From NCBI GenBank assembly GCA_021650895.1, contig CP091278.1, positions 959,659 through 1,023,658 on the forward strand: a stretch of DNA of 64,000 bases. The letters run 5' to 3'. The position numbers and the translations under genes were made by a program. Every line of letters begins with the position of its first letter. Within the stretch, counting starts at the first letter, position 1. Under the pieces are notes generated by a model. That model worked only from the letters and a program-made list of their open reading frames with translations, did no database searches and was not told where the DNA came from. Of this stretch, positions 42,540-53,022 are shown in pieces. Origin of the DNA: Candidatus Jettenia sp. Its GTDB lineage: Bacteria; Planctomycetota; Brocadiia; Brocadiales; Brocadiaceae.

Positions 42540-42618
<79 letters not shown>

Positions 42619-42630
42619 AATTCAAAGGTT

Positions 42631-43683
42631 TCAGGCGTTTGACACTTCCTGTTTTTGCTCAACTGTAGTCAAATTGTAGTCAACTTCTAAAACCTGTATT
42701 CCATCCCTTAGACTATCCGGACAATGATGAGCATACCTCTGCGTCATTCGAATATCCTTATGACCTAATAACTTTGCTATTTTATATATATCGACCCCTC
42801 TTTGTGCTAGGCGTGTAGCAAAGGTATGTCTAAAAGTATGTGGAGTTACATCTTCAATACTAACCTTCTTTAATACACTTTCAAGCGCCCTTCGGAGATT
42901 ATCGCTATCAATCTTAGTTCCGACAGCACTTGTAAACACTAAATCATTCTTAATATTTCTTACCTTTGATTTCTGCACTAATATATCGAGTGCTATTTGA
43001 TTCAATGGTATAGTTCTTGGCTTTTTGTTTTTGGATTCGTGAATTAAAATCGTTTTACGGAACAGATTTACCCGACTCCATTCTAAGGAAAGTAATTCGG
43101 AGATACGCAACCCTGTATGTAAATCAAAAACAATTATATCCCTTAGCCATTGAGGAGATACTGCAAGTAATCTTTTTTCCTCATCTTCAGTTAACCAACG
43201 ATCTTTTTCGTTATTCTCTATCTCTTTTGGAACCTTGGAGACAGGATTAATTTGAATCCATTCCCATTCTTTAACCGCTAAATTAAAAGCCTTTGAGAGC
43301 ATAGCTAACTCCCTGTTAATAGTAGCAGGCTTTACACCTTCATTTCTTCTTAACACCTTATACTCAGAAATCATTTTAGGTGATATTTTTGAAACCTTTG
43401 AAGTACCAAAAAAAGGTATAAGGTGTTTCAATGATGCTGAATAGTTACGCTGCATATTTTTCGAGACTTTAGGAGCATGCTCATTCATGAACTTTTCTAT
43501 CATTTCAGTGAAAGTTTTGTAACTCCCGATAAACTTATCAAAATACTTTCCCTCAACAATTTCGGTTCTAATCTTAGCTTCAATCTCTTTGGCAAGTTTC
43601 TTATCAGAAGTATCTAAACTTTTTTGAATCCTTTTCCCATCATGCCTAATACAAGTCCACCAGACACCACCCCGTTTAAACAT
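42631..43683 (-). CDS. Tyrosine recombinase (integrase) of the tRNA-Ala element
   Basis: 350 aa, complete. The N-terminal arm-binding segment (FKRGGVWWTCIRHDGKRIQK) is followed by the core-binding domain (residues 55-150) and the catalytic domain. Catalytic residues: TGLRISELLSLEW (Arg), HTFRHTFATRL (HxxR), GHKDIRMTQRYAHH (His and Tyr). It should catalyse integration into and excision from tRNA-Ala; its 3' end faces attL 13 bases away. A close homologue, broken, lies at 51872-52938. Confidence 0.95.
   Translation of the reverse strand: MFKRGGVWWTCIRHDGKRIQKSLDTSDKKLAKEIEAKIRTEIVEGKYFDKFIGSYKTFTEMIEKFMNEHAPKVSKNMQRNYSASLKHLIPFFGTSKVSKISPKMISEYKVLRRNEGVKPATINRELAMLSKAFNLAVKEWEWIQINPVSKVPKEIENNEKDRWLTEDEEKRLLAVSPQWLRDIIVFDLHTGLRISELLSLEWSRVNLFRKTILIHESKNKKPRTIPLNQIALDILVQKSKVRNIKNDLVFTSAVGTKIDSDNLRRALESVLKKVSIEDVTPHTFRHTFATRLAQRGVDIYKIAKLLGHKDIRMTQRYAHHCPDSLRDGIQVLEVDYNLTTVEQKQEVSNA
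42662..42684 (+). repeat. Copy 1 of 23-bp repeat with doubled TGTAGTCAA
   Basis: Two TGTAGTCAA words 12 bases apart, in the 3' end of the integrase coding sequence. The same 23 bases recur at 48302-48324 near attR. Confidence 0.8.
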
Positions 43684-43746
43684 ATTTTCCTCCTTTCCCG
43701 GGACTGATTGTGCCTGTATGACCGCTATTAGGCATTATAATTATTC

Positions 43747-43968
43747 CTAAAAAATTTCTCCAATGATTTTATTCGCAACTTCCTTAAATGATTGCATATC
43801 ACGTTTATAAGATGCCATTATCTGGTCTATATCTTCTAAATCAAATAAAACACGACGACCAAACTTAATAGAGGGAACTTTTCCCTGGCTTGCCCAATCG
43901 TAGAGTGTTTTCACGGGCAAAGAGGTATATTCAGAGACTTCTTTAACACTCACATACCGTTTTTTCAT
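43747..43968 (-). CDS. Excisionase-type MerR/helix-turn-helix protein
   Basis: 73 aa from the ATG at 43968 (AAGGA 7 bases upstream). SVKEVSEYTSLPVKTLYDWA followed by GKVPSIKFGRRVLFDLEDID is the standard AlpA/excisionase HTH_17 domain, which bends DNA to drive excision or regulates element genes. It stands just upstream of the integrase gene on the same strand. A degenerate copy lies at 51606-51814 next to the second integrase, so the xis-int pair is a conserved module. Confidence 0.9.
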   Translation of the reverse strand: MKKRYVSVKEVSEYTSLPVKTLYDWASQGKVPSIKFGRRVLFDLEDIDQIMASYKRDMQSFKEVANKIIGEIF

Positions 43969-44001
43969 TGTGATGTCCTTATTCATCATATTATTACTTC
44001 A

Positions 44002-44832
44002 TTAGAAAGGTACTTCTATCAAACTCTCATTTTTTTCAAACCACTTTTTCACATCGGTAACATAATTTTCTTTAATCATAGTCTCTAATTCCAGAGATCT
44101 GAATTTATCAAGATTACCCCTGAGCTTTCTATTAATCTTTGTCATTAAAAAATATAAACCGCCTACCATAGAGCCTATTCTTTCCTTATCTTCAAAATCA
44201 TAGAACCGTATCCTGTCAAAGTGTGATACTAAAGTTACAGGATCATTTACTATATCCTTTAAACAGCCTTTAAAATTACTTAATTGAATTTCAAATCGTG
44301 TTATCTGTTTTTCTGATTCAATAATACCTTTTTCCCATTCTGTAATATCCCATCCTTTTCTTTGTCTGTGTTTAATCTCTTTTACCTTATCATAAATTCG
44401 TATCTTTGGATTAGAGCCTATATAGATAGTACCTTTATAAAGACTCAAACTATCACGATTGAAACCAGGAACGTGCAAACGTGAAAACACCACATCCATA
44501 GGAAGATTCTCCACATCTGCCGTTAAATCAATTCTACTGACATTGAGATATTCTAAATCAAGTTGATCATGAAAGATATTGCCAACATAGTCATAAAGAA
44601 ATTGAAAACAGTCAAAATACTTCGGGTTAATATCTATCTTTGAGTAGGGTATTCTCATATTCGTTTCATCACTAAACTTATGAGGCTTCCACATTACTTG
44701 GGCATAATCCATCTCACAGAAGTATTTATAAAGCCTTAATCTTTGTAAATCCTCAGTAATTTTCCAGAATTCCCTTAAATAGTCAGCTTTAACCATTTCA
44801 GAAGTCGTAAGACATAATTTATCAATTCCCAT
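44002..44832 (-). CDS. Replication-initiation-like protein (Rep_trans type)
   Basis: 276 aa from the ATG at 44832, preceded by AAAGGTG at 7 bases; the frame is open to 44910. The middle has ISRIDLTADVENLP-like (LNVSRIDLTADVENL) and PKIRIYDKVKEIKHRQRKGW, followed by EKQITRFEIQLSNF. This order of strands fits rolling-circle replication initiators of the Rep_trans/phage gpII kind. If right, the element can replicate after excision. The nick-site tyrosine cannot be fixed by eye. A giant hairpin lies 290 bases upstream (45121-45254), a possible origin. Confidence 0.6.
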   Translation of the reverse strand: MGIDKLCLTTSEMVKADYLREFWKITEDLQRLRLYKYFCEMDYAQVMWKPHKFSDETNMRIPYSKIDINPKYFDCFQFLYDYVGNIFHDQLDLEYLNVSRIDLTADVENLPMDVVFSRLHVPGFNRDSLSLYKGTIYIGSNPKIRIYDKVKEIKHRQRKGWDITEWEKGIIESEKQITRFEIQLSNFKGCLKDIVNDPVTLVSHFDRIRFYDFEDKERIGSMVGGLYFLMTKINRKLRGNLDKFRSLELETMIKENYVTDVKKWFEKNESLIEVPF

Positions 44833-44902
44833 ATTATACACCTTTAACCTTAATGAAAAGTAACGAGTTTGCTGGTGATTACCCATATACCAGCAAACGA
44901 TT

Positions 44903-45115
44903 TTACGCACATGGAGAATTATCGCCGGGGCGGGCTGCGCTTGTTCGTCCCTGAGTCCTCACAGCTTGCCCGCAAGAACTGAAATATTTATATACCTCTT
45001 CAGACTCAATAAACCATATGCAAGGTTGATAAGGAGTTATTTCGCTGATACAGTAATCATCATCTTGCCAGTGATAACAATATCTACAATGTGTAATTGC
45101 CATTTTTTTAATCAT
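44903..45115 (-). CDS. Small cysteine-rich protein
   Basis: 70 aa from the ATG at 45115; an in-frame GC-rich extension to 45226 overlaps the large hairpin and is unlikely to be coding. HCRYCYHWQDDDYCISEITP with later CIWF and SCGQAV gives several cysteines, perhaps a zinc site. The C-terminus (VRTQGRTSAARPGDNSPCA) is unusually GC-rich compared with the rest of the element. Function unknown. Its 3' end lies just upstream of the Rep-like gene. Confidence 0.5.
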   Translation of the reverse strand: MIKKMAITHCRYCYHWQDDDYCISEITPYQPCIWFIESEEVYKYFSSCGQAVRTQGRTSAARPGDNSPCA

Positions 45116-45120
45116 TCCCG

Positions 45121-45254
45121 AAGTTTCTCTATCCTTGCCCGCTAGCCCGATTGCAAGTTCCACTTGCGCCCACATATTACGGCATGCTGCTTTCCTTCGG
45201 GCGCATGCCGTAGGGAAAGGGCGCAAGACAATTAGGGCAAGGATAGAGAAACTT
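45121..45254. other. 134-nt giant imperfect hairpin
   Basis: The outer arms are a perfect 20-bp inverted repeat (45121-45140 and 45235-45254, AAGTTTCTCTATCCTTGCCC). Inside lie nested arms CTTGCGCCC/GGGCGCAAG (45163-45171, 45219-45227) and TACGGCATGC/GCATGCCGTA (45178-45187, 45203-45212). Base composition is much richer in G+C than the surroundings. Candidate replication origin or single-strand folding site of the element. Confidence 0.85.
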
Positions 45255-45300
45255 TTTCAAATTGCTAAGAGATATTGAGAATATTTACACCAAATAAAAA

Positions 45301-45343
45301 AAGCCGAGACTCTAGTTGAATGTATCAACCATAATCTCGGCTT
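45301..45343 (-). terminator. Terminator for the zinc-ribbon/RHH genes
   Basis: AAGCCGAGA and TCTCGGCTT arms; on the minus strand it is followed by TTTTTTTATTT. It lies 45 bases after the 58-aa gene. Confidence 0.75.
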
Positions 45344-45388
45344 CTTTATCTTCGAGAGACTTCTTTACCGTTCTAAATATAACTTATT

Positions 45389-45565
45389 TTATGTACAGAC
45401 TAGCATCTCATTACATTTACTGCATTTTATATGTCGGATGTTTTCTCTTTCATACTCTATCAAAACTGAAGGTTTCCATATTTTTTGTCCTGGTTTAATA
45501 ATTTTAAGCTTTTTCCCGCATTTAGGACAGCTTCCATCAGAAAGAAGATGACTTTGCTTTCTCAT
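45389..45565 (-). CDS. Small zinc-ribbon protein of the element
   Basis: 58 aa from the ATG at 45565, with GGAGG 8 bases upstream. GSCPKCGKKLKIIKPG and HIKCSKCNEMLVC form two CxxC knuckles, so it likely binds one zinc. No catalytic motif. Such mini-ribbons are common in integrative elements, possibly contacting DNA or RNA polymerase (inference). It follows the ribbon-helix-helix gene by 44 bases and shares its terminator. Confidence 0.7.
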   Translation of the reverse strand: MRKQSHLLSDGSCPKCGKKLKIIKPGQKIWKPSVLIEYERENIRHIKCSKCNEMLVCT

Positions 45566-45609
45566 ATCTGTTTCCTCCAAAAATTATAAAAAATAAAATA
45601 CAATTTTTC

Positions 45610-46245
45610 CTATACTTCCCTACCAGGTGGTTTTTCTTTTAATTCCTTAATGAGTTCATTGCGTACTTTCTCAAGCTCTGCATTCACTTTGTTATAAGAA
45701 TCTTTTGCAAATGTCAAGGCGGTAAAATAATAGCATGCCTTTTCAGCAAGGTTTTTCTTCATGTCTATGATATGTTCCTGAGTTTCTTTGTCGCCTGATT
45801 TTATAAAAACAAGCCCATCAATAAGAACTTCACCCACACTTATTAGAGTGTCTGCTGCAAATCTTCTGTGTTCTTCAGATATGGAATCAAAGTGTTTAAT
45901 AGTTTCTTTTAAAATTTGGTGAATCCATCCCAACAATACAACTGGCTGTAAATCTGGCTTTGTTTTATTAAGAGGATTTAAGAATTCTGTATAAAGGACT
46001 GCAATGAAATCTTGAAAAGCCCTTACTATAGGCGACTTATCTAATTCCTTCCAGAAAACAGGTCTTTCTTGTTTTCTTTTATTAATAGTGCTTACTATGA
46101 ATTCCTTGTCTTCTTTAAAGCTATCAATAAGGTGTTCATCAATAAGTTTTGATAGAGAAATACCTTTTTCCTTTGCCCTCTTTTCTAAAAAGGCTCTCAA
46201 TTCCTTACTGATTCTTATTCCGACAAATTCTTCTTTTTTCGCCAT
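45610..46245 (-). CDS. Ribbon-helix-helix regulator with long helical C-domain
   Basis: 211 aa. The first 50 residues (FVGIRISKELRAFLEKRAKE, KGISLSKLIDEHLIDSF) form a CopG/Arc-type ribbon-helix-helix DNA-binding domain. Residues 60-205 are mostly helical with no family I recognise, perhaps a sensor or oligomerisation module. It is transcribed away from the restriction gene, and the 178-base gap between them holds a GC-rich hairpin (46356-46402), so it may control that divergent promoter (inference). Confidence 0.75.
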   Translation of the reverse strand: MAKKEEFVGIRISKELRAFLEKRAKEKGISLSKLIDEHLIDSFKEDKEFIVSTINKRKQERPVFWKELDKSPIVRAFQDFIAVLYTEFLNPLNKTKPDLQPVVLLGWIHQILKETIKHFDSISEEHRRFAADTLISVGEVLIDGLVFIKSGDKETQEHIIDMKKNLAEKACYYFTALTFAKDSYNKVNAELEKVRNELIKELKEKPPGREV

Positions 46246-46355
46246 AGTTTATGAGTTACTATTTGTTTAACATTTAGTTACTAACTGATTATCATCAATG
46301 TAAACTGTTTTGTCAAATAAAATTTATAATTATTTTTCTTCTTTTATGTACTTTG

Positions 46356-46402
46356 CCGTGCTTCGTTGCGCTCTCGTACAGCTTCCGCTCCACTCAGCAC
46401 GG
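46356..46402. promoter_or_regulatory. GC-rich hairpin in the divergent RHH/restriction promoter region
   Basis: CCGTGC at 46356 and GCACGG at 46397 enclose a C-rich stretch (TTGCGCTCTC, CTTCCGCTCC) in otherwise AT-rich DNA. Confidence 0.45.
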
Positions 46403-46504
46403 AATTAATCTGGTTAAAATTAATTGAAATACTTTTCTAAATACCATATACTGCATACCAATTTATTAATAGATACCCAAATTGTACTTTTAATGTTTGG
46501 CCAT

Positions 46505-47374
46505 ATGGAACTTTGGAGTAAAAATACAGAAATTGAGTTTTTTGCTAAGGCAAGGGAGTTTGCTACGCCCGATCAGCTATTTTACAAAGATATCTCTGGT
46601 AAGTATTTAGCCTACTGGCCTAAAGGATATGGTAATCCTAAAACAACTCTTCAGAGTAGGAATACTTTGATTGGTAACTTTACTGAAAAGTGGACAACTA
46701 ACTTAATTCAAGATGTTGTTAAAGATAAAGGATTATTTGCTGTTCAAGGTGCTATTTGTGAAGAGATTGCTCTTTCAAACAAATCTTCAGCCGATGTTGT
46801 AATATCAAGATCAAACACAATTAACCAAAATCCTGAAAATATTCTAGCTATCTTAGAAGTAAAAATGTCTGTTGTTTGGAATTGGGAATTTAAGCCAAAT
46901 TTAAACAAACTCATCTGTTTGGGCGATTTTAAAAGTCACCAAGGGAATCCCGGTTTGTTACGCTCTGACTCCATGCTCAAAGCTATTGGTAAAAGTATTA
47001 ATATTAGGGTATCAAGCTATAAATCAAATAAAATACCTATCATTATCATGGGTAATACTCCGATAACAATTAGTTATTACTCAAAAGTAGATTATCTAAA
47101 GATTGCTGGAATAATCCAGGGTTTTTGGTCAATTAATCCAAATCCCTTGAACGGTAATGGAGAAAATATAAAAAAGACTCCTAAAGAAGGATTTTACAAA
47201 TTTGATACTTTTTCAGAACTTAAAACTAAAATTGATGATTTATTAAATAAGGAACATCATTTCTTTTCAAGCATGAAAAGTAAGAAAGAACTTGGTAAAA
47301 TAATAGAAAGTGCAAATAAGAAAGAATCATACGAAGAAAAGGCAGAAGAATTTTTAAGAATAATTGGTGGGTAG
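46505..47374 (+). CDS. Type II restriction endonuclease, PD-(D/E)XK type
   Basis: 289 aa from the ATG at 46505 (frame open to 46424 with other starts). The active-site pattern fits PD-(D/E)XK: SSADVVISRSN (Asp), then NILAILEVKMSVVWNW (Glu-x-Lys). The rest is alpha/beta as in that fold. It is followed at once by a DNA methyltransferase whose start lies just past its stop, the standard restriction-modification arrangement. The recognition sequence cannot be predicted. The assignment rests on the catalytic pattern and the neighbour. Confidence 0.75.
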   Translation: MELWSKNTEIEFFAKAREFATPDQLFYKDISGKYLAYWPKGYGNPKTTLQSRNTLIGNFTEKWTTNLIQDVVKDKGLFAVQGAICEEIALSNKSSADVVISRSNTINQNPENILAILEVKMSVVWNWEFKPNLNKLICLGDFKSHQGNPGLLRSDSMLKAIGKSINIRVSSYKSNKIPIIIMGNTPITISYYSKVDYLKIAGIIQGFWSINPNPLNGNGENIKKTPKEGFYKFDTFSELKTKIDDLLNKEHHFFSSMKSKKELGKIIESANKKESYEEKAEEFLRIIGG

Positions 47375-47375
47375 T

Positions 47376-48299
47376 ATGAAGGATTTAAAGTATAGCAGAA
47401 ATGGGACAAAAACAAGTTCTTTTGGGACTCCGGGAAGAATTAATCATGATTCTTCTGAATTTTATAATAGTAAGTTATATGAAGGGTTTAAGCCTGATGA
47501 AAGTATTAAATATGTTGAGAATCCTATTCCAGCAGAAGTGTTGAATAAGATTTTTTGTAAATCAAGTGAAAGAATGGATGAGATTCCAGATAATAGTGTT
47601 CACTTAATGATAACTTCTCCACCATATAATGTAAAAAAAGAATACGATCAAAATTTATCATTACAAGAATATAGGCAGCTTCTTAAAAAAGTTTTTCAAG
47701 AAACTTACAACAAACTTATTCCTGGTGGGAGAATCTGTATAAATATAGCAAATCTAGGACGAAAACCTTATATACCTTTGCATAGTTATATTATTGAGGA
47801 TATGCTTAGTATTAATTTTCTAATGCGAGGTGAGATTATTTGGAACAAAGCATCAAGCGCTAGTCCATCAACAGCATGGGGCAGTTGGTTATCTGCTGCT
47901 AATCCTGTTTTACGTGATATTCATGAATATATTTTAGTTTTTTCTAAAAGCTCTTTTACAAGAAAAAGACTTAAAAAAGTAAGTACAATCACAAAGGAAG
48001 AATTTTTAGAATTTACTAAAAGCGTTTGGACATTTCCAGCAGTTTCAGCAAAATCTATTGGGCATCCAGCACCATTCCCGGAAGAATTACCCCACAGACT
48101 AATTCAGCTATATTCTTTTAAAGGTGATGTAATTCTTGATCCCTTTTGTGGAAGCGGAACAGCTTGTTTATCAGCTTTAAAAAATGAAAGATATTATATT
48201 GGATATGATATTAATAAAGAATACGTTGAGTTAGCAAATCGAAGAATACAAGAGGTTATAAATAAATCAAAACAAAAAAAGCTTTTTCAAGAAGTTTAA
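47376..48299 (+). CDS. DNA methyltransferase (N6-adenine or N4-cytosine, beta class)
   Basis: 307 aa from the ATG at 47376, one base after the restriction gene stop. Motif IV ITSPPYNVKKEYD comes near residue 83, and motif I DPFCGSGTACLSAL near residue 266, so the order IV-then-I marks the beta class. It shares the DNA_methylase N4/N6 fold and would protect host DNA against the adjoining endonuclease. SPPY does not by itself separate adenine from cytosine-N4 methylation, though TSPPYN is frequent among N4-cytosine enzymes. Confidence 0.9.
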   Translation: MKDLKYSRNGTKTSSFGTPGRINHDSSEFYNSKLYEGFKPDESIKYVENPIPAEVLNKIFCKSSERMDEIPDNSVHLMITSPPYNVKKEYDQNLSLQEYRQLLKKVFQETYNKLIPGGRICINIANLGRKPYIPLHSYIIEDMLSINFLMRGEIIWNKASSASPSTAWGSWLSAANPVLRDIHEYILVFSKSSFTRKRLKKVSTITKEEFLEFTKSVWTFPAVSAKSIGHPAPFPEELPHRLIQLYSFKGDVILDPFCGSGTACLSALKNERYYIGYDINKEYVELANRRIQEVINKSKQKKLFQEV

Positions 48300-48301
48300 A
48301 T

Positions 48302-48324
48302 ACTGTAGTCAAATTGTAGTCAAC
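48302..48324 (+). repeat. Copy 2 of 23-bp repeat with doubled TGTAGTCAA
   Basis: Exact copy of 42662-42684, outside any gene, 137 bases before attR. Followed by GCGGTCATAACAGTCAC (about 48402), similar to the DNA just upstream of both integrase genes. Confidence 0.8.
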
Positions 48325-48461
48325 ATCAGAGAAATCCAAAGGAACTCATAGAAGTTAACAGAAAATAAAGTAAGTTATAAGTTATTGCATTGCAATAAAT
48401 TGCGGTCATAACAGTCACAATATCAGTCAGTTATAAAAAATGCTAAAAATACTCTTTTAAC

Positions 48462-48511
<50 letters not shown>

Positions 48512-48531
48512 TTATTAAAGGTTTCAGGATA

Positions 48532-49190
48532 TTAACCATTGCTCGCCTCTCCCAAATTGTATAGTTTTTGTATAGTTGGTTTTGTGGCCAAGATGTCATC
48601 CAGCGTATCAACTGCTTTAACCTTGTGATTCGGTGCTTTGTGCCCCATAAGCTCTTTTACAGTAGTAAGGTCAATACCCGCCATTACCCAGTGGCTTGCA
48701 AAGGTATGTCTCAAATCGTGAAACCTAAAATCTCTTATCTCAGCTCTCTTTAATGCCGTCTTAAAACTTCTTTTAACATCGCCATAACAATTACGAGTCA
48801 CGAGATCGTGGAATATATACGGCATATCTTCACACCTTGAAATACTCTGTAATATTTCCTGTAATGTCTGGTTTATAGGTAGTTCTTTGCGCTATGAGTT
48901 CTTGGTTTGGCCTTAATTCAGCAATATAAAGCCTGCCTTCAGGTCTATGTTGTCCCATTTAAGTCTTAATACTTCATCTTTCCGCATCCCGGTATTTAAT
49001 GCGGTAATGACAATAGGTTTTAGGTGCTTATCGCATGAATCAACAAGCCTTTGACACTCCTCTGTGGATAGATACCTCAACCGCTTTCGTGAACATATGG
49101 GATATGGTAGCAATAAGCCTGTTTACAGTGGCAGGTTTATTACCCTTTATAGCTTTTATGCCCTGACTTAGCCCGACCTTCGCAATTCGA
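48532..49190 (-). pseudogene. Older integrase relic, frameshifted and 5' truncated
   Basis: Pieces read NKPATVNRLIATISHMFTKA (near 49150-49090), YLSTEECQRLVDSCDKHLKP and TGMRKDEVLRLKWDNIDLKA (48913-49080), then FHDLRHTFASHWVMAGIDLT with VKELMGHK (48532-48825). At least two frame changes lie between 48850 and 48915, and the catalytic tyrosine segment is poorly preserved. The N-terminal third is gone, cut near the repeat at 49165. Its 3' end faces attR 21 bases away, the same geometry as the intact integrase facing attL. So it belonged to an earlier element in the same tRNA-Ala site. Confidence 0.8.
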
Positions 49191-49239
49191 GGGGTAGACA
49201 AGCCGGTGAGCCAGTAAATTCAAGGGGTTATGGGAAAAG

Positions 49240-49252
49240 GTCGGCACTACAG
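49240..49252 (+). repeat. Left 13-bp direct repeat flanking the IS1634-family element
   Basis: GGTCGGCACTACA, identical to 51071-51083. Confidence 0.7.
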
Positions 49253-51070
49253 CCCAATTTGTCCTGATGCATAAACCTTGGGTGGCGGTTGTTCAGGAAG
49301 CGTCAATCCCAATTATGCTAAAAGGAGAGAAATATCCTTATCCGGCTGGCTATAGCGGCTCATGACAATGTGACGGCCATCCGTGGTCGGTAAATGAACA
49401 TCGATCATTTGAATGGTTGAGAGTTTTTCTAAAATTGCTTCAGATGTCAGCCCTGCGGCTCTTCCCCGTGCAAGATTTCTTAGCATCGTGTGGAGACAAA
49501 AAGCCAAAAAGGAAACAAAAATATGGGCTTCAATTCTCCTTTCCAACTGGTGCCATATGGGGCGGAGGGAAAGCGATCCCTTCAAATCCTTAAATGCCTG
49601 TTCAATCCGGGTCAACAGCAGATAAGTTTCCCAGATCGTTTCAGGCGAAGCAGCCTGCATGTTGGAACGAAGCAGATAGCGTCCTTCGCGCCGCAACGTT
49701 CGCCTCAGGCGTTCCCGATCCAGGCTGAAATGGAACGTATTCTCATTCACCGGTTCCTGTGGCTTTGGCAGAGAGATACGAACCAGTCCAAAGTCACGCC
49801 CGGCTTCTTTCTTCAATGCCCCAATATGCATCAGCAGGTTATCACGTGTGATGCTCTTTCGATTGCGAAGTTCGTGCAGGCTTGCCCACAGACGCTTCAG
49901 TCTGCGGCGACGTATGGAACGTTCCTTGACTCCCCGGTCATGGCTTTCCACATAAACATAGAACTCCGATTCTTGCTGAAGAATTTTCACGCGGACACTT
50001 TCTCGTGCTTGAATCCACGTCTGTTCCAGTAACGATTTTTCAACACGAGTTAAATGTCCCTTGGGTGTCCCAACCAAATAATCAATTCCTCTCAAGCGCA
50101 TCTTTTCCAGTATATCCTCCGTTGGAATGCCTCGATCCATCAGCCAGGTGCGACGGAATTTCCCATACCGTTTCTCTCTCCGATCCAAAAATTCCCCTAA
50201 TGTTGCAGTGTCTCTGGTATTACCGGGATATACTTCATAGGCCATGGGAAATCCTTCCGGCGTCAACACCAATGCCACTACCACCTGAACACAATCCGAA
50301 CGTTTGTCCCGGCTATACCCAAAACGTTTTTTACTGTCCAAATCTCCAGACGGCGGATCACTTTCAAAATACGTACTTGTCAAATCATACAGGAGCACAT
50401 CATACTTCGCTCCAAAGAGTTTGCCCCATTGCCCTTTTAAAAATACAAATACCTCATCGCGATGCCTCAGCAGCAAATCCAAACAACGATACGGCTTATC
50501 CTTCTGAGCCAATGAATAATCCTCCCCCAGCAGATCACCCAGAGCACTGCGCACATACCACTCACGGTGAAAACGAAATTCGCTTCCCGGATCTATTAAC
50601 CGGTAACAGGTCAATGCCTTCAGCATATTGAGCCAGCTTGTCCCCTTACGGCTTGACGGCAAACGCTCCCTCCAAAATGCATCCAGTTCCAGCATATCCC
50701 ATACATACAATCCCAACCAGCATGCGCCCCATTGCCGTGGATGGCGCAATGCTATTTTGTCCAACCGCACCCGGATGGTCTCGCAGTCCAATATGGGCAA
50801 TTCTTCCCGGTCATCCGGAAATAGTGCTAGTTGTTTTGCCCTGGACTCTTCACCAGAAACAGCCTCTATCGTCCGAACCCATCCCGCACGTTGGTTGTCA
50901 TTGAGTTCTCCCAGGTAGAGAATTTGCCTCTGTACCACTTTTCTTCCGCTGACCCGACGGTTTTCTACTACACTCCAATACCGGTGTGTTTTCCCATCTT
51001 TCGTCCGTGTTTTTTCTCGTAAAAACATGCAAACATTTTCGCAGTTTCCCCAAATGACGTCAATAGGGTA
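49253..51070. mobile_element. IS1634-family insertion sequence
   Basis: About 1.8 kb bounded by the 13-bp direct repeats GGTCGGCACTACA. Terminal inverted repeats are weak (CCCAATT on the left versus CCCTATT on the right, other strand), so the exact borders are uncertain. It holds one intact transposase gene. Confidence 0.6.
49313..51028 (-). CDS. IS1634-family (IS4-like) DDE transposase
   Basis: 571 aa from the ATG at 51028, which starts the family-typical FLREKTRTKDGKTHRYWSVV; the frame is open to 51079. The catalytic pattern is visible: DVLLYDLTSTYFESD (first Asp), RRTWLMDRGIPTEDILEKM (second Asp) and LLLTRIEQAFKDLKGSLSLR (Glu). The frame is undamaged, so the element may be active. Codon usage is more GC-rich than the neighbours, a sign of recent arrival. 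Confidence 0.92.
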   Translation of the reverse strand: MFLREKTRTKDGKTHRYWSVVENRRVSGRKVVQRQILYLGELNDNQRAGWVRTIEAVSGEESRAKQLALFPDDREELPILDCETIRVRLDKIALRHPRQWGACWLGLYVWDMLELDAFWRERLPSSRKGTSWLNMLKALTCYRLIDPGSEFRFHREWYVRSALGDLLGEDYSLAQKDKPYRCLDLLLRHRDEVFVFLKGQWGKLFGAKYDVLLYDLTSTYFESDPPSGDLDSKKRFGYSRDKRSDCVQVVVALVLTPEGFPMAYEVYPGNTRDTATLGEFLDRREKRYGKFRRTWLMDRGIPTEDILEKMRLRGIDYLVGTPKGHLTRVEKSLLEQTWIQARESVRVKILQQESEFYVYVESHDRGVKERSIRRRRLKRLWASLHELRNRKSITRDNLLMHIGALKKEAGRDFGLVRISLPKPQEPVNENTFHFSLDRERLRRTLRREGRYLLRSNMQAASPETIWETYLLLTRIEQAFKDLKGSLSLRPIWHQLERRIEAHIFVSFLAFCLHTMLRNLARGRAAGLTSEAILEKLSTIQMIDVHLPTTDGRHIVMSRYSQPDKDISLLLA

Positions 51071-51083
51071 GGTCGGCACTACA
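51071..51083 (+). repeat. Right 13-bp direct repeat flanking the IS1634-family element
   Basis: GGTCGGCACTACA, see 49240-49252. Confidence 0.7.
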
Positions 51084-51159
51084 AGCCATTTTGAAAACCG
51101 ACTCCTGTAAATTCAAGGATTTCTGGGTAATTCTTAACCAAAAATAACCTTTTGGGAGT

Positions 51160-51597
51160 GTGAATTGCGAAAGTCGGGTTAGCATGAGCCAAGGAACCTA
51201 TAGTGCTTTAGCTGACTTAGATCTTGCTAAAAAACAAGTAAGAAAAGTCTGGCTGAAGGAATATGGGTTTATCGTAGTTTGTAAGATAGTCCACACAAAC
51301 GGAGACATTACCTATGTGGCAAGTAATGATTTAAGTTTAACCGATTATGATACATTTACTGAGCATTTTCACCAGAGATGGAAAATAGAAGAGTTCCATA
51401 GAGGTATTAAACAAACGACGGGAATAGAGAAGTGTTATTCCACTCTAGCAACTTCTCAACTGACCCATATATTTGCCTCTTTTCTTGCTTTTATAAAATT
51501 GGAAATAAGACGTATCAAAGAACGAATTTCCTGGTATGAACAAAAAGCCTCTCTTACCAGGTTTTCTGTTACTCACTATTTGTTAGGAAATGCGTAA
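51160..51597 (+). pseudogene. DDE transposase, C-terminal fragment
   Basis: About 140 residues resembling the end of an IS4/IS701-type transposase. QGTYSALADLDLAKKQVRKV is followed by FHQRWKIEEFHRGIKQTTGI, with the catalytic glutamate in KIEEFHRG, and FASFLAFIKLEIRRIKERIS. The N-terminal two thirds are missing. It begins at GAATTGCGAAAGTCGGGTTA (51163), whose inverted near-copy lies at about 49165-49185. So the fragment and the region to its left were probably brought together by rearrangement. It cannot encode an active enzyme. Confidence 0.75.
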
Positions 51598-51605
51598 GTC
51601 CTATA

Positions 51606-51814
51606 AATATTAAAGAAGTCTCCGAATATACTTCTTTACCAGTTAAAACGCTCTATGATTGGGCAAGTCAAGGCAGGGTTCCATCTATAAAGTTTGGTCG
51701 TCGTGTACTATTTGATCGGGAGATATAGACCAAATTATGAAATCTTTAAAACGTAATACAAATCATTGTGAGAAAATAGCTAATAAAATCATTAGAGAAA
51801 TTTTTTGGGAATAA
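51606..51814 (+). pseudogene. Excisionase-like gene, no start and one frameshift
   Basis: IKEVSEYTSLPVKTLYDWAS and GRVPSIKFGRRVLFD match the intact excisionase at 43747-43968 almost word for word. The frame then stops at a TAG near 51728; a one-base change gives DIDQIMKSLKR and IANKIIREIFWE to 51814. The start codon region is replaced by the end of the transposase fragment, so insertion truncated it. Confidence 0.8.
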
Positions 51815-51871
51815 TTATACTGCTTAATAGCGGTCATACAGACACTATCAGTCCCGGGAAAGGAGGTAATT

Positions 51872-52938
51872 ATGTTTAAACGGGGTGGTGTCTGGTGGGC
51901 TTGTATTAGGCATGATGGAAAAAAGATTCAGAAAAGTTTAGATACTCCTGATAAGAGACTTGCCAAAGAGATTGAAGCCAAGGCTAGAATCGAAATTATC
52001 GAGGGAAAGTATTTTGAAAAGGTAAAAAGCGGTAATAAGACCTTTCATGATATGATGGAAAAGTTTATGAAAGAATACGCTCCAAGGGTCTCTCCTAGTA
52101 TGCAAAACAGTTACTATTCTTCTCTGAGACATTTAAATCTATCTTTTGGTAATTCAAAGTTATCAGCAATCTCTCCTAAAATGATTTCTGAATATAAGGT
52201 ATTGCGGAAAAGCGAAGGTGTAAAACCTGCTACCATTAACCGGGAACTAGCAATGTTATCAAAGGCATTTAACCTGGCTGTTAAAGAGTGGGAATGGATT
52301 AAAGATAACCCTGTATCGAAAGTACCGAAAGAAAAGGAAGATAATGAAAGAGACCGTTGGTTAACAGAGGATGAAGAAAAGAGATTGCTTGAGAATTCTC
52401 CAGCATGGCTTAAGAATATAATCTAATCCTTTTTGATCTACACACTGGTTTACGTCAAGATGAATTACTTTCCCTTCAATGGGATCGGGTAAGCTTATTC
52501 CGTAAAATTATTATCATTCAGAAATCAAAGAACGGCCGGCCAAGAACGATTCCATTAAACCAAATTGCACTTGGCGTTTTAATGGAAAAATCAAAGATTC
52601 AGAATCTTAAAAGTAATCTCGTATTTTTCAGTAGTACAGGAACCAAGATTGACAGACATAATCTGAGAAGGGCTTTTAATATCGCTTTAGGTAAGGCTGG
52701 CATTCAAGGTTTCCATTTCCACGACCTTAGACATACCTTTGCTACGAGATTAGCACAAAAAGGGATAGATATTTACAAAATATCAAAACTATTGGGGCAT
52801 CAGGATATCAGAATAACTCAACGTTATTCACACCACTGCCCTGATAGTTTAAGAGATGGGGTACAAATTCTTGAGGCTGACTACAATTTGACTACAGTTG
52901 AGGAAAAACGAGATATGGCAAATTCGAGAAACCCTTGA
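51872..52938 (+). pseudogene. Tyrosine integrase, inactivated by a 5-bp tandem duplication
   Basis: A close homologue of the integrase at 42631-43683, same length overall. The first part (51872-52426) runs from FKRGGVWWACIRHDGKKIQK to SPAWLKNII and then stops. The stop arises from TAATC being present twice (52419-52428). Removing one copy gives NIILFDLHTGLRQDELLSLQ and continues through HDLRHTFATRLAQKGIDIY and ITQRYSHHC to 52938. All catalytic residues are present. Its 3' end lies 6 bases from tRNA-Pro, the expected target of its own element. Confidence 0.88.
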
Positions 52939-52944
52939 ATTTAT

Positions 52945-53022
52945 TGGTCGGGGTGGCGGGATTTGAACCCACGACCTCTTGAACCCCATTCAAGCGCGCT
53001 AGCCAAGCTGCGCTACACCCCG
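52945..53022 (-). tRNA. tRNA-Pro (anticodon GGG)
   Basis: On the minus strand: acceptor CGGGGTG/CACCCCG, D-arm GCGC...GCGC, anticodon arm CTTGA/TCAAG around ATGGGGT (GGG), T-arm GTGGG TTCAAAT CCCGC, and encoded CCA. It is the probable att site of the neighbouring broken integrase. Confidence 0.94.

Follow-up and report, generated by a model that had tools for sequence, protein, structure and literature searches.

The feature under study lies within a roughly 5.9-kb integrative element in the window, by which we mean the whole stretch of 64,000 nucleotides that was analysed. Examination of the minus strand of this element reveals the following order: a gene for a ribbon-helix-helix-like protein, a terminator-like hairpin, a giant hairpin, a small Cys-containing ORF, a second and much shorter hairpin, the replication gene rep, an HTH_17 gene and an integrase gene. 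A type II DNA methyltransferase and a neighbour without an assigned family form the cargo. The features, with strand where one applies and, for some, the basis of the call, are:

42569-48506, integrative element of about 5.9 kb, delimited by a tRNA-Ala direct repeat (about 50 bp; copies at 42569 and 48462)
42631-43683, minus strand, tyrosine integrase of the element
43747-43989, minus strand, HTH_17 excisionase-like protein
44002-44832, minus strand, divergent Rep_trans-like initiator of the RepA type (motifs; weak Pfam match)
44867-44898, minus strand, small second hairpin, stem GTTTGCTGGT/ACCAGCAAAC and loop ATATGGGTAATC in the rep sense (sequence)
44903-45103, minus strand, small Cys-containing ORF (MAITHCRYCYHW...) of 66 codons, kept before rep in RepA loci
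45121-45140, 5' arm of the outer stem P1 (fold and covariation)
45163-45171, 5' arm of the middle stem P2, CTTGCGCCC (alignment of copies)
45172-45178, 5' internal loop ACATATT, unpaired (alignment of copies)
45178-45187, 5' arm of the inner stem P3, variable in sequence but co-varying (fold and covariation)
45188-45202, apical loop TGCTTTCCTTCGGGC (alignment of copies)
45203-45212, 3' arm of P3 (fold and covariation)
45219-45227, 3' arm of P2 (alignment of copies)
45235-45254, 3' arm of P1 (fold and covariation)
45297-45347, minus strand, terminator-like hairpin with a T-run after it in the rep sense (sequence)
45610-46245, minus strand, ribbon-helix-helix-like protein (weak Arc/NikA/CopG-like matches)

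The terminator-like hairpin divides the unit of giant hairpin and rep from the upstream ribbon-helix-helix gene. The initial annotation had placed the giant hairpin upstream of a Rep-like operon; it does lie 5' of rep, but the 66-codon ORF and the small hairpin intervene. A GC-rich inverted repeat, GCGGGC...GCCCGC, is found within the Cys-containing ORF (44922-44975), with similar repeats in L018, L063 and L123. In the cargo region (46424-48299) an ORF of no known family is situated upstream of the type II methyltransferase and may be its restriction enzyme. Remnants of further elements come after the second tRNA-Ala repeat (48462-52945): an integrase that is truncated (48532-48825), a DDE transposase (49313-51079) and, next to a tRNA-Pro, another integrase that is broken.

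The giant hairpin spans 134 nt and comprises three nested stems, P1 (20 bp), P2 (9 bp) and P3 (10 bp), all without a mismatch and exactly as first described. Its GC content of 52%, against about 35% in the surroundings, likewise bears out the earlier description of a GC-rich structure in AT-rich DNA. Folding of the 134 nt as both RNA and DNA, a check proposed in the initial annotation, gave energies of -76.8 kcal/mol (z -10.8) and -44.3 (z -8.9) respectively, and none of 200 shuffled sequences folded as well. Furthermore, no other 134-mer of the window reaches so low an energy once GC content is corrected for (z -7.4, with the next independent region at -4.3), and the perfect arms of the hairpin are the longest among the inverted repeats in the window that are spaced by less than 200 nt.

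A DNA search recovered a second copy in the same genome, upstream of a gene for a different replication protein, RepB, in an integrative element at a tRNA-Met. A covariance model built from five copies identified 17 copies, spread over 11 of the 33 genomes of the host's family, the Brocadiaceae (anammox bacteria), a count from draft genomes in which copies may be missed, and none in 29 genomes from other families of the same order. The host genome of 3.8 Mb contains just three, each in a replicative element. In a pattern scan of 84,980 genomes true copies were seen in Brocadia only; matches in G186 (L019), Bradyrhizobium and others were chance finds in GC-rich DNA devoid of the rest of the structure. 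The pattern also led by chance to an unrelated, very long and near-perfect inverted repeat on a Saprospiraceae contig (L037:2060-2134 and flanks). Plasmid and phage records held no similar DNA, and a pattern search of viral contigs gave either nothing or two matches that failed the covariance model.

An alignment of the 17 copies showed changes on both sides in 26 of the 38 base pairs, as opposed to at most 12 when the same structure is shifted by 1-3 columns, with a covariation score of 0.31 versus 0.12 or less for the slid structure; since the copies are related by descent, these counts do not represent independent events. All three stems co-vary, and in P1 both sides have changed in 18 of the 20 pairs among the 17 homologues. 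The 17-copy alignment was fitted to the model and so favours the outer two stems, but the unfitted five-copy alignment agrees with it. In P2 the 5' arm CTTGCGCCC co-varies to CCCTTGCCC/GGGCAAGGG in the copies from inoviruses, while the CATATT core of the 5' internal loop is almost unchanged across the 17 copies, and the apical loop is TGCTNTTCCTTCGG-like in the core copies. Given its conservation with compensatory changes in 16 other copies, a chance origin of the hairpin is excluded. Selection on the structure, earlier surmised from the nesting of the stems, is strongly supported by these changes and by the conservation. Two further candidate features were rejected: 1) a pseudoknot between the apical loop and AAGGAA, for which pairing with the true partner was no better than with swapped ones (p 0.45); 2) an in-frame ATG within the hairpin (MWAQV...) as the start of Rep, the frame being lost in L020 and the ATG being explained by the conserved AATATGTGGGCGCAAG sequence.

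The two Rep types found beside the hairpins, RepA and RepB, are about 20% identical. Enzymes of the Rep_trans family have published active-site motifs comprising a conserved D, RxD, T/SxY/ExG, YxKxxE and W/LxRxE (PMC5714925). RepA displays counterparts of these as GID, SRID, TIYIG, YDKVKE and ITRFE (with I in place of W/L), and RepB as GID, RVD, YEKTVE and VWRLE (with V in place of W/L), motif II being unmatched. The YxKxxE tyrosine motif is present in the Rep, where a protein without a nicking tyrosine would have spoken against the origin suggested initially. Against the Pfam Rep_trans profile (PF02486) RepA scores 17.6 bits (E=0.003), under the gathering score of 29.6, and RepB gives no match; structure models of both have pLDDT values of 33-36. 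Plasmid pTHEBA.01 of Mesotoga prima (1,724 bp) has a large ORF related to both RepA (E 2e-3) and RepB (E 2e-13), and, as in the anammox elements, a small ribbon-helix-helix-like ORF comes before it, although the conserved hairpin motifs are absent from the plasmid. A match to RepB also came from the filamentous Thermus phage Zuza27, in its endonuclease. In light of the Rep_trans motifs and of these relatives, RepA and RepB are most likely rolling-circle initiators. A further RepB relative is encoded on a Thalassospira marina plasmid (L023); a gene annotated as major capsid protein P2 follows within a few genes, a context that suggests a PM2-like prophage.

Directly 5' of a Rep gene lie 15 of the 17 copies (three with RepA and 12 with RepB), and the other two are in inovirus DNA. 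The distance from the hairpin end to the start motif of rep ranges from 116 to 345 nt where measured, and the orientation relative to the replication genes is identical in 17 of 17, a count that overstates the significance because the copies are not independent and the acquisitions behind them may number only 3-5. Being common to Reps of about 20% identity and to the Rep_trans replicon of an inovirus, the hairpin is not tied to Rep specificity. Moreover, the copy at the RepA locus L063 groups with the RepB copy L036 (74% identity, support 0.99; other RepA copies, 49-51%); the module has therefore passed from one Rep type to another. In these respects the giant hairpin resembles a module that can be exchanged, keeps its orientation and is confined to certain hosts, on replicons that pass through single-stranded intermediates. 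A link with rolling-circle replication is strongly supported. A MITE-like or other non-autonomous repeat that came to be located here by chance would likewise form a discrete unit that some homologous sites have and others lack, but the confinement of the three copies in a 3.8-Mb genome to replicative elements, the fixed orientation, the conserved inner loops and the want of a matching transposase make such an origin highly improbable.

The initial annotation would have been refuted by homologous elements lacking any hairpin here, and this applies in part: the giant hairpin is absent from two of five RepA and eight of 20 RepB loci (10 of 25 in total). These loci retain a different, small hairpin right before rep, which is present in all five RepA loci, with a ATGGGTAAT-like loop, and has a counterpart in nearly all RepB loci, with an invariant AGTAACACA in a CYTAGTAACACA-like loop, including RepB loci of another family; the RepB stem varies in a compensatory manner. 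Short palindromic double-strand origins (dsos) sit upstream of rep (PMC5703833), and by this analogy the small hairpin is a better candidate than the giant one for the site nicked by Rep. The giant hairpin might itself be nicked, either as the double-strand origin of Rep or as an oriT for a relaxase acting in trans, as it is a large palindrome adjoining Rep and close to a ribbon-helix-helix protein with weak NikA-like similarity. However, rep and a separate small hairpin also occur at loci where it is absent, and it stands beside Reps of only about 20% identity, which leaves this reading with a low probability. Of the two origins suggested earlier, the single-strand origin fits, whereas the rolling-circle origin, as a Rep nick site, fits poorly and is contradicted by the rep loci that lack the giant hairpin. 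In a separate observation, a GC-rich hairpin with GAGCG/AAGCG words was noted upstream of rep in L081, L082, L085, L087 and L095, and also in L008, L031 and L036; RepB elements often have it, whether or not they carry the giant hairpin, and it is possibly a second single-strand origin.

The third copy of the host genome is in an intact-looking inovirus prophage of 11.4 kb (L102:775-12138, genome 1404674-1416037), which is bounded by a 60-bp tRNA-Gly repeat and codes for a repressor, a Rep_trans protein (E 3.6e-32), a secretin, coat-like proteins, a Zot match and an integrase. Here the hairpin lies 175 nt inside one end, in the same strand sense as the phage genes; rep is about 3 kb away, beyond genes on the opposite strand. 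The second inovirus-associated copy, in G002, is in a remnant between tRNA-Gly repeats that adjoins an inovirus. These placements raise the possibility of a packaging signal, which would tag single-stranded DNA so that inovirus assembly proteins export it, with the RepA and RepB elements as satellites packaged by the resident inovirus. The M13 packaging signal, thought to be a hairpin (PMC10480500), offers a precedent, the RepB relative in a filamentous Thermus phage also speaks for such a role, and hairpins occur in five of six Zot-bearing genomes versus six of 27 others (Fisher p 0.0096), although this is weak evidence as the genomes are related. Conversely, Zot was not detected in six of the hairpin genomes, and an inovirus in G002, 99.8% identical to that of the host genome over a 7.2-kb stretch that includes Zot, has no hairpin, with the qualification that this prophage may be defective. 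We accordingly consider a packaging role doubtful, and it is no less a long shot that the small Rep-only integrative elements with defence cargo are satellites of an inovirus, travelling in filamentous particles as single-stranded DNA.

The inovirus copy also bears on whether the hairpin could act as RNA, namely as a structured leader of the rep operon or as an antisense RNA that controls it. In the RepA elements it occupies the place of a 5' leader, between the terminator and the small ORF with rep, its RNA fold is highly stable, and regulatory RNAs typically have conserved unpaired bases. Yet in the inovirus it is separated from rep by opposite-strand genes, it occurs with unrelated Reps, homologous rep loci can do without it, and Rfam gave no match at either strict or permissive settings. 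Wobble pairs and fold energies of the copies gave no clear signal of a strand preference: G.T mismatches number 22 versus 13 A.C in all copies, and six versus 11 in the core copies. Mismatch counts favour neither strand, which weighs against a function in RNA and also against a single-strand origin. On balance we regard an RNA function as improbable.

Most known single-strand origins (ssos) come from plasmids of Gram-positive bacteria. The ssoA class bears the CS-6 motif, which we take to be TAGCGT; this motif was absent from all 17 copies, and no known sso hallmark was found in them. Known ssos have a fixed orientation, a flexible position, a length of about 160 nt and a restricted host range, occur on plasmids with diverse Reps (PMC5703833), and are usually upstream of the dso (PMC4595007). 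Given that the giant hairpin keeps one orientation at varying distances, has been exchanged between Rep types, is confined to one family, measures about 140 nt and lies upstream of the candidate dso, we propose, with somewhat better than even confidence, that it is an sso of an undescribed class used by small anammox rolling-circle replicons. The want of a known sso hallmark or an Rfam match counts against this proposal, as does the existence of some RepA and RepB elements without the hairpin, which as an sso would have to be replaceable. We take leading-strand polarity from the orientation of rep and the replication mode from the Rep type. On the proposed sso function, the element would excise, and its Rep_trans-like Rep would nick at the small hairpin beside rep, rendering the displaced rep-sense strand single-stranded. 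Just 5' of the nick region, the giant hairpin would be exposed last and then fold on the displaced DNA strand, where a host enzyme (RNA polymerase or primase) could recognise the unpaired CATATT internal loop and the TGCTNTTCCTTCGG apical loop and synthesise the primer for the complementary strand.

Several described systems offer parallels. The staphylococcal ssoA and ssoU are similarly structured DNAs of about 140-160 nt with the same combination of orientation, position, Rep diversity and host restriction (PMC5703833), whereas the anammox hairpin, with putative sso activity, is one long rod of three nested stems from another phylum that shows neither CS-6 nor sequence similarity. The sso1 of ICEBs1 (MOBT/Rep_trans) is likewise structured and orientation-specific and belongs to an integrative element with a Rep_trans-type enzyme (PMC4595007), but it forms three stem-loops downstream of the nicking origin, while the anammox hairpin lies upstream of both rep and the candidate nick hairpin. 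The complementary-strand origin and packaging hairpins of Ff (M13) are found on the single-stranded form of a filamentous phage, and one anammox copy is in an inovirus prophage; however, phage records show no sequence similarity, and the anammox hairpin is also found on elements without coat genes. Among the open-licence papers searched, none described such a sequence in anammox bacteria.

A strongly co-varying structure defines a replicon module in anammox bacteria, ties together plasmid-like integrative elements, inoviruses and defence cargo, and provides short candidate sequences for the start sites of both strands. It could also serve as a marker for finding such elements in hard-to-culture anammox genomes, where small rolling-circle elements carry defence cargo. 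One RepB element of a Brocadia genome (L020:3153-5097) encodes a Thoeris-like ThsA (E 5e-204) and, adjacent to it, a 161-aa protein as its possible partner, with DNA methyltransferases further on.
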